Shown: piece by piece, positions 11,347 through 16,476 of the stretch
How the letters are laid out: every line of letters begins with the position of its first letter
Numbering within the stretch: the stretch's first letter is position 1
DNA from: Natronomonas sp. CBA1123
GTDB lineage: Archaea > Halobacteriota > Halobacteria > Halobacteriales > Haloarculaceae
Direction: 5' to 3'
Assembly (NCBI RefSeq): GCF_009741925.1
Contig: NZ_WPCC01000032.1
Span: forward strand, 1 to 35,181
DNA: 35,181 bases
Notes under the pieces: generated by a model
Database searches by the model: none
What the model saw: only the letters and a program-made list of their open reading frames with translations
Told to the model about the DNA's origin: nothing
Program-made: the position numbers and the translations under genes

Positions 11347-12273
11347 ATGCCATACTGCCAACAGTGCGACAAAACCGTCGACGACGGGCGGTACTGCCCC
11401 GATTGTGGGTCGGAACTCGTCCAGCCGTCGGCGGACCGCAACCAGTGGGGAACGGAGCGAGAGACGGGTAGCGGCGCCGACGCCTCCGGGTGGGGCGAAC
11501 CGGCCGAAACACCCGACAGTCATTCGGAATCGCAAACTGCACGGCCGACCGGAGACACCGACGAGGGGGAGGATTACTTCCAGAAGGGTCCGTTAGGGTT
11601 CTCGCTCACGTACCCCATCGCCGACGGTTGGGAACAGATGCTGATAAGCGCCGGACTGCTGTTCCTTGCGGGGTTGGTCATCTTTCCGTTCGTGTTCGTC
11701 TACGGCTACGCCTACCGACTCGGGCGGGCGGCCATCCGGGGCGACCATCGGCCACCTGAGTACGGCGACTGGGGCGGACTGTTCGTCGACGGCTTACTGA
11801 TTTCGGTCGTCGGGATACCGGTGTTCATCGCGATGCTCATCGCAATCGCGGTTCCCGTCGGTCTGTCGACCGCCCTCGATGCGCCGTCGGTGATGCTGCT
11901 GGCGATACCGCTGTATCTGGCGACGCTGTACGTCGGCGGCGGCGTCCTGCCGACGTTCATGGCGACCGGAAGCGTCACCCGAACCTACAGCGGCCTCCGG
12001 TTTCTGGAGTTCGTCAAGACGACGAACTACCTGAAGGCACTCCTCTTCGGCTTCCTCGCGACGTTCGGAATCACCCTCGCGATGATGTTGGTGTTCCTCG
12101 TCCTGCTCATCACCGTCGTCGGGATTCTGCTCGCGTTCCCGCTTCTCATCATTGTCCAGCCGTTCGTCGTCTTCATCCCGTTTTTGCTGTTCGCGTATTT
12201 CTACCGGGAGTCGATGCTGGAAGGCGTCGTGCCGGAACTGGAAAACGAGTCGACGCTCGGGTCGGAGTTCTGA
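11347..12273 (+). CDS. DUF4013 membrane protein with N-terminal zinc ribbon
   Basis: 308 residues. The N terminus is a zinc ribbon, with Cys4, Cys7, Cys17 and Cys20 in the pattern CxxC-x9-CPDC, followed by a disordered acidic linker to about residue 85. The rest is a DUF4013 domain with GYAYRLGRAAIRGD after the first helix and five or six hydrophobic helices (about 98-300). The ATG at 11347 is preferred because it starts at the zinc ribbon; a GTG at 11338 is in frame. The TTAACA at about 11319 may be its TATA box. It lies on the opposite strand inside the otherwise continuous ribosomal/SRP operon. Function is unknown. Confidence 0.85.
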   Translation: MPYCQQCDKTVDDGRYCPDCGSELVQPSADRNQWGTERETGSGADASGWGEPAETPDSHSESQTARPTGDTDEGEDYFQKGPLGFSLTYPIADGWEQMLISAGLLFLAGLVIFPFVFVYGYAYRLGRAAIRGDHRPPEYGDWGGLFVDGLLISVVGIPVFIAMLIAIAVPVGLSTALDAPSVMLLAIPLYLATLYVGGGVLPTFMATGSVTRTYSGLRFLEFVKTTNYLKALLFGFLATFGITLAMMLVFLVLLITVVGILLAFPLLIIVQPFVVFIPFLLFAYFYRESMLEGVVPELENESTLGSEF

Positions 12274-13655: not shown

Positions 13656-14213
13656 TCACAGCGGAAACCGTTCGAGGGTCTCGTATTCGGGTCCCTCCGG
13701 CGTCAGCGTACTCTCGGTGAGCCGCAGCTCCTCGACGTGGAGCGTCCCGGCCTCGGGGTAGGTTTCCTCGACGGCCTTCTGGACAGTCTCCTTTGCGGCG
13801 GCGTGGTCCATCCGTGCCAGCGTGACGTGTGGAGTGAACTCGTGGGATTCGGCGTCGTAGCCGAGTGCGGTCGTTTCGGCCTCCAAGGCCTCGTGGAGCG
13901 CCGTGAGTTCGGCGCGTCCGTTTTCGACGCCGAGCCAGACGACGCTGATGTACTCCAGTGACGGGAAGACGCCCAACCCCTCGAATCGAGCGTCGAACGG
14001 ACCCACGTCGGCCGTTTCGACGGCCGTCTCGATGGCAGCCGACAGCGCATCGAGGTCGTGACCGGCGTCGGGACCGTCTCCGAGGAACTTCATCGTGACG
14101 TGGGCGCTCTCGGGGTCGGTTGGGTTCAACCCCGGGAGGTCGGCGAACGGTGCCTGAGCCTCGGCGACCCCCTCGCCGAGACCGTCGAGGTCGACACTCA
14201 CGAACAGGCGCAT
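13656..14213 (-). CDS. thpR: RNA 2',3'-cyclic phosphodiesterase (LigT/ThpR)
   Basis: 185 residues of the 2H phosphoesterase superfamily, which hydrolyses RNA 2',3'-cyclic phosphates to 2'-phosphates. The two catalytic HxT motifs are HVTMKFLG (His38) and HVTLARM (His129). The N-terminal MRLFVSVDLD strand is typical. The distance between the motifs and the total length fit the family. A T-rich CGGTTTTTGCC on the minus strand (about 14236-14246) precedes the ATG by about 25 bases. The gene ends at the edge of the GC-rich repeat spacer. Confidence 0.92.
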   Translation of the reverse strand: MRLFVSVDLDGLGEGVAEAQAPFADLPGLNPTDPESAHVTMKFLGDGPDAGHDLDALSAAIETAVETADVGPFDARFEGLGVFPSLEYISVVWLGVENGRAELTALHEALEAETTALGYDAESHEFTPHVTLARMDHAAAKETVQKAVEETYPEAGTLHVEELRLTESTLTPEGPEYETLERFPL

Positions 14214-14477: not shown

Positions 14478-15658
14478 ATGAAACTCGCAGTAATCGGGTT
14501 CGGACAGGCGGGAGGGAAGGTGCTCGACCGGCTGCTCGAGTACGACCTCGAACGGGGGACAGGGGTCGTCAGCCACGCCATCGCGGTGAATTCGGCGAAG
14601 ACCGACCTCATGAGTCTCGAGTGTGTCCCGGAGGAAAACCGCGTGCTCATCGGGCAGACCGTCGTCGACGGCCACGGTGCAGGTACCGAACCGTCACTGG
14701 GCCGGCAGTGTGCGGAGGCGGACCTCCAGCGGATACAGACCGCCCTCGACGGTGCCACGAGCGAGGTCGATGCGTTCCTCGTCGTTGCGGGACTTGGTGG
14801 CGGAACCGGCAGCGGTGGCAGTCCGGTGTTGGCCGACCACCTCCGTGAGATTTACGCCAAGCCAGTGTACGGACTCGGCATCCTGCCGGCCGAAAGCGAG
14901 GGGGGTATCTACAACCGCAACGCTGCGGACTCCCTCGAGCGGTTCGTCGACAGCGTCGACAACCTCCTGTTGTTCGACAACGACGCGTTCAAAGCCACCG
15001 GCGAGAGCCTCGCGGAGGGGTACACCGCCATCAACGACGAAATCGTCACCCGCTTCGGGTCGCTGTTCTCGGCGGGAGAACTCGACGCCCTCGGCGACAC
15101 CATCGCCGAATCGGTCGTCGACGCCTCCGAAATCATCAACACACTCGGGGACCGCGGCATCACGAGCGTCGCTACGCCGAGGAGGAATTGGCCGAAGAAC
15201 CGGCGGGACTGCTCGACCGGCTGAAAGCCGACGACGAGGAAATCGCCTCCGAAGGCGACGCGGCGGGGCGAATCACCTCGCTGGTCCGTCGAGCGACGCT
15301 CGGGAAACTCACGGTTCCCTGCGGCCTCGAGAGCACCAAGCGGGCGTTGCTCGTGGTTTCGGGGCCGCCGGAACAGCTCAACCGAAACGGCATCGAGGAG
15401 GCCCGCAGCTGGCTCGAAGAGCGGACCGGCTGTCTGGAGGTTCGGACCGGCGACTACCCGCGTCCGGACGCCGACAGCGTGGCCGCAGTCGTCGTGTTCT
15501 CGGGCGTGACCGACATCCCCCGAATCGACGACGTCCAGGCCGAGGCGATACGGACCGAGGAGTTCATCTGGAACACGGAGCGAGAGGGAACCGAAGACGA
15601 ACTCGAAGAGCTCGTCAGCTACGACAACGAGTCGAAGTCCTCGGCACTGCTGGATTGA
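14478..15658 (+). pseudogene. cetZ: CetZ tubulin-like protein, interrupted by a -1 frameshift
   Basis: CetZ proteins are archaeal FtsZ/tubulin-superfamily GTPases that control cell shape. The 5' part (14478 to about 15171) encodes MKLAVIGFGQAGGKV, AIAVNSAKTDL, the tubulin signature GLGGGTGSGGSPV (about residues 110-122), NNLLLFDND-like LLLFDNDAFKATG, and ESVVDASEIINTLGDRGITSV. There the frame breaks. The protein continues in another frame as YAEEELAEEPAGLLDRLK and on to LVSYDNESKSSALLD. Adding one G at about 15171 (GTCGGCTAC instead of GTCGCTAC) restores a 393-residue protein, the normal CetZ length. The 1181-base span equals 394 codons minus one base. Either the gene is truly broken or one base was lost in sequencing. 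Codon use is unchanged on both sides, so any mutation is recent. The paralogue number is not assigned. Confidence 0.9.
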
Positions 15659-15729: not shown

Positions 15730-16476
15730 ATGACTGACGAGGAACCCGACGACTCACACGAGTTCTCCGAGGGCCAAGGGTTCGGCGACCCCTACGAGGG
15801 GTTCGACCTCGACCCGCCGGAGTTGGACATCGACCCGGGGATGGTAGACCCGGTGGACTCCCGAGTCGTCGCCGACACGCTCGACCGCCGACAGATTCCG
15901 GCGGACCAAGTCGACGCCGAGAGCCTCCTCGACGTGGGACTGGAGTACATGCGCATCAACCGCCACGAGCAGGCGACCGAGGCGTTCGAACGCGTCGCGA
16001 ACTTCGCGGACGACGACGGCATCGAACAGGAGGCGTGGGTGAACAAGGGCGCCGCCCACGCGGAGTTACAGGAGTTCCAGCGAGCCATCGAGTCCTACCG
16101 GGAGGCACTCGCCATCGACGACGAGTCCGAACACGCCGCCTCGGCGGAGACGAACCTCGCCTACGCGCTGTGGGAGTCCGGGCAGAGCGAACAGGCGCTC
16201 GAACACGCCGAACGCGCCGTCGAGTTAGACCAGCGGTTCCCGCAGGGATGGTACAACCGCGGGTTCTTCCTGCTCGAACGGGGGCTGGCCGAGGACGCCG
16301 TCTCCTGTTTCGACAACGCGCTCCGACTGGGTCACCGCAGTCCGGACGTACTCGAGGAGAAAGCCCGCGCACTCGAAGCGATGGGTGAAGACGACCGCGC
16401 CGAGGAGGTCGCCGAAGAGGCCGAGGAACTCAGACAGAACGCCGAGGAGAAACTCGTCGAGTCACGGGAGAAATGA
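15730..16476 (+). CDS. Tetratricopeptide-repeat protein
   Basis: 248 residues. An acidic disordered N terminus (about 1-60) contains Asp/Pro repeats. Then come about five TPR-like helical pairs (about 70-235), with the typical small-residue/aromatic pattern seen in EAWVNKGAAHAELQEFQRAIESYREALAID, split across EQALEHAERAVELD and GWYNRGFFLLERG. It is likely a cytoplasmic scaffold for protein-protein contacts. It overlaps the DUF424 gene by four bases (ATGA), so the two should be translated together. The partner is unknown. Proximity to cetZ is noted, but a 71-base gap separates them. Confidence 0.88.
   Translation: MTDEEPDDSHEFSEGQGFGDPYEGFDLDPPELDIDPGMVDPVDSRVVADTLDRRQIPADQVDAESLLDVGLEYMRINRHEQATEAFERVANFADDDGIEQEAWVNKGAAHAELQEFQRAIESYREALAIDDESEHAASAETNLAYALWESGQSEQALEHAERAVELDQRFPQGWYNRGFFLLERGLAEDAVSCFDNALRLGHRSPDVLEEKARALEAMGEDDRAEEVAEEAEELRQNAEEKLVESREK

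Follow-up and report, generated by a model that had tools for sequence, protein, structure and literature searches.

Does this Natronomonas strain carry a broken cetZ gene, or has its draft genome merely lost a letter? The question arises in genome G000 (Natronomonas; 3.45 Mb in 89 contigs), where contig C19, the 35,181-nucleotide stretch analysed here as the window, holds a cetZ gene whose conserved sequence is divided between two reading frames. An earlier note, made from the letters alone, attributed the division to a single missing base. The locus is laid out below; G002 is the nearest genome and G005 a relative that serves as outgroup.

13656 to 14213, minus strand: upstream neighbour, a protein of the 2'-5' RNA ligase / LigT family
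14478 to 15170, plus strand: N-terminal part of cetZ, 231 codons in the correct frame from an ATG start at 14478, covering the GTPase domain, the core helix, the T7 loop with E218, helix 8 and the beginning of strand S7
15171 to 15172, plus strand: frame-break site, at which G002 and G005 have one base more
15171 to 15224, plus strand: out-of-frame extension that the assembly as it stands gives the N-terminal part, 17 nonsense codons closed by the TGA at 15222-15224
15173 to 15658, plus strand: C-terminal part of cetZ in the -1 frame, 161 codons and a stop, opening YAEEELAEEP
15730 to 16476, plus strand: downstream neighbour, a TPR protein

Both frames encode CetZ sequence. The first runs, exactly as the earlier note had read it, to GDRGITSV, whose last codon ends at base 15170, and then into 17 nonsense residues (ATPRRNWPKNRRDCSTG) before the TGA. 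As assembled, this frame (14478-15224) therefore specifies 248 amino acids, 231 of CetZ and 17 of nonsense. It matches the Pfam Tubulin family (PF00091, 118 bits) and carries the GGGTGSG signature at residue 107, as expected of the Tubulin/FtsZ GTPase domain of a CetZ. The C-terminal half, which the note had placed in the next frame from YAEEEL onward, is found there. The CetZ_C family (PF21011) is complete but divided, with positions 1-57 in the first frame and 57-179 in the second (147 bits), so that the two pieces abut exactly. Moreover, the N half matches residues 2-231 of the crystallised Haloferax volcanii CetZ1 (4B46) with an E-value of 2e-84, and the C half matches residues 245-390 of the same protein with an E-value of 5e-39. 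Because both halves match 4B46, the split gene is not a chance arrangement of open frames.

Comparison with relatives localises the lesion to one base. In G002 the gene is 93% identical at the DNA level and intact at 393 codons, and a BLASTN alignment pairs 1,175 bases of the window with 1,176 of G002, the only gap being a single base at 15171/15172. The G005 gene (78% identity) is likewise uninterrupted and encodes 393 amino acids, the length that the earlier note had predicted for the restored protein. The same two neighbours adjoin the gene in both genomes, which supports orthology. The comparison with sister genes that the note had proposed thus yields unbroken genes with one base more at the site, and together with the abutting CetZ_C pieces it bears out the loss of one base. 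None of the approximately 105 related cetZ genes examined is interrupted (104 tree rows besides the window, some of them one gene from two sources, and L113), and the break is seen in the G000 window only.

The gene shows no sign of decay on either side of the break. Relative to G002, dN/dS is 0.007 in the N half (42 synonymous and 1 nonsynonymous differences) and 0.053 in the C half (32 and 6). When differences are polarised with G005, the window branch holds 19 synonymous and 2 nonsynonymous changes, the latter both in the C half. The six nonsynonymous differences of the C half all lie within about 25 residues past the break. We considered this cluster as a sign of decay and rejected it, since the region is variable and differs in G005 too; lying between S7 and the next helix, it is probably the variable M-loop of CetZ (PMC9856176). 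Comparison with G002 revealed neither a second lesion nor relaxed constraint in the window gene. These values rule out an old, established pseudogene, and they imply that the base loss is either very recent or not real, in keeping with the note's wording of "recent or artefactual".

A quick tree places the gene of the window with those of G002 and G005 in a clade of accessory Natronomonas paralogues (support 98-99), apart from the main copy. The main cetZ of G000 lies intact on contig C44 (389 amino acids), preceded by an NDP-sugar-epimerase-like gene and followed by a CofC-like one, as read from sequence rather than by profile; an NDP-sugar epimerase upstream and cofC nearby are the described neighbourhood of cetZ1 (PMC9856176). 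A third CetZ-like gene, an open frame of 404 amino acids, is on contig C9. Thus, although both window halves match H. volcanii CetZ1 along its whole length, the window gene, flanked by the 2'-5' RNA ligase and TPR genes, is not at the conserved cetZ1 locus, which in G000 corresponds to C44. It is best read as a Natronomonas-specific accessory paralogue that is related to CetZ1. In this it resembles the second CetZ of N. pharaonis (Q3IRT7), an additional CetZ1-like gene that lies away from the usual CetZ1 and CetZ2 neighbourhoods (PMC9856176). The sister group of the window clade, at a moderate support of 91, is a fast-evolving set of sequences that includes a copy from G007, which we infer to be Q3IRT7 itself; the branch to the G007 protein is long (1.42), and the grouping may owe something to long-branch attraction.

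A very recent change and an artefact can largely be told apart by asking whether other genes of the draft are broken in the same way. We compared 326 kb of G000 aligned to G002, using G002 genes as reference and requiring differences biased to third codon positions on both sides of each break. At least seven constrained G000 genes contain clear frame breaks: cetZ, NAD kinase, a heavy-metal P-type ATPase, a flavin monooxygenase, a polytopic membrane protein, the replication factor C large subunit (where the break falls in the C-terminal tail, at profile position 438 of 502) and a 189-residue protein. Protein identities were worked out for four of the seven. Further likely breaks affect a DnaJ-like protein, a solute-binding protein and UDP-glucose dehydrogenase. 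In the reverse direction, the same 326 kb yielded no supported break in G002. Several apparent breaks from a stop-to-stop scan were dropped as intergenic sequence or antisense open frames. Extrapolated from the aligned 326 kb, this rate would give roughly 75-100 breaks in the whole of G000.

Three side observations were made on the draft. UDP-glucose dehydrogenase (L169, near 86900 of contig C9) is broken by an 11-G run exactly at its GWGGSC site, at which the G002 protein, unlike that of G000, is interrupted by an intein-like insertion of about 465 residues. On contig C28, two overlapping pieces in different open frames match a P-type ATPase domain at 70287-70899, probably another one-base break. 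Finally, the aligned stretches from about 178700 to 234100 of C9 are mostly 97.7-98.4% identical to G002, compared with mostly about 91-95% elsewhere, possibly through recent exchange or because the region is more conserved.

The strongest single control is a gene that the cell must have. In the only leucyl-tRNA synthetase gene of G000 (LeuRS; TIGR00396), a run of six C has gained a seventh (contig C26, about 11550-11600; L272), dividing the gene into open frames of 685 and 353 amino acids; in G002, G003, G005 and G008 it is a single frame of 891-907 amino acids. A cell without leucyl-tRNA synthetase cannot live. Since G000 has one such gene and its cells need it, the LeuRS break must be an error. 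NAD kinase points the same way, more weakly. Both genes with an NAD_kinase_C domain that were found in G000 (C44 3809-4676 and C37 22813-23160) lie in short open frames of 199 and 184 amino acids, compared with frames of 290 and 297 in G002 and G003. Each of the nine other Natronomonas genomes searched has three copies of the family, and a third was not found in G000. The draft thus contains an excess of breaks in genes that must be intact: LeuRS is among them, and the clear breaks number at least seven against none in G002.

The breaks also look alike. Insertions fall mostly within runs of G or C (LeuRS, from C6 to C7; UDP-glucose dehydrogenase, G11), and three of the four deletions, that in cetZ included, are the loss of a G from CGGC, a shared pattern that we take as a signature of base calling. 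As a counterpoint, the cetZ site is a GG pair only and not a long run. Taking the breaks together, we conclude with considerable confidence that cetZ lost its base through faulty sequencing or assembly, in a draft prone to indels. In the organism itself the locus most likely encodes an ordinary CetZ of the full 393 amino acids, and the reads would be expected to contain the missing base. The case resembles the GeneTack singletons classed as "pseudogene or sequencing error" (PMC3711429), in which a frame is broken in one genome and intact in its homologues; what differs is that here other genes of the draft, LeuRS among them, tip the balance to error.

The strongest rival is that a real, very recent one-base deletion has inactivated the accessory paralogue, either as a fresh pseudogene or as a laboratory mutation. 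The base is, after all, absent from the assembly, a fresh mutation would likewise leave no decay, and loss of an accessory copy might be tolerated in a genome whose cetZ1-type gene on C44 is intact. We nevertheless judge it unlikely: similar breaks are common in the draft and extend to its only LeuRS, so that errors suffice as an explanation. An artefact is much likelier than a mutation because one-base breaks are many in G000 and none was supported in G002. For any single gene, a lineage with a high rate of indel mutation, or a very recent real mutation, could still be responsible.

Most improbable is a real deletion that leaves a functional fragment. A CetZ cut at the domain boundary would keep the GTP-binding half and might modulate the filaments of intact CetZ, and the earlier note had raised the prospect of such a truncated, possibly dominant protein in the cell. 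The structural models do not support it. In an AlphaFold2 model of an intact relative, residues 228-238 form the first strand of the C-terminal domain and the break lies inside it, so the product would end within that strand. From residue 199 on, the model of the 248-residue product itself has a pLDDT below 50, which is very low confidence.

Least plausible of all, with next to no chance of being right, is a programmed -1 frameshift or a split gene that yields CetZ, in one form or in a short and a long one: the break does fall almost exactly where the C-terminal domain begins, but no relative shares it (the gene is uninterrupted in G002, in G005 and at about 103 other cetZ loci), and conservation of the site is the criterion for programmed frameshifts (PMC3711429). 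No slippery heptamer is present at the break; the sole X_XXY_YYZ motif in the N frame lies near 14900, some 270 bases upstream, and a slip there could not restore CetZ. Independent expression of the C half was also rejected, the only possible start codon ahead of its long conserved stretch being a weak one, TTG at 15188, inside the loop downstream of strand S7.

If the missing base is an error, as we believe, the locus carries a warning: gene losses and truncations read from the G000 draft are not credible without the reads. Annotated as it stands, G000 would wrongly appear to be without a CetZ paralogue, a working LeuRS and an intact NAD kinase. For the family, the strength of purifying selection, greatest in the GTPase half, suggests that this Natronomonas-specific second CetZ1-like protein has a real function; a protein so constrained probably has a job to do in the cell.
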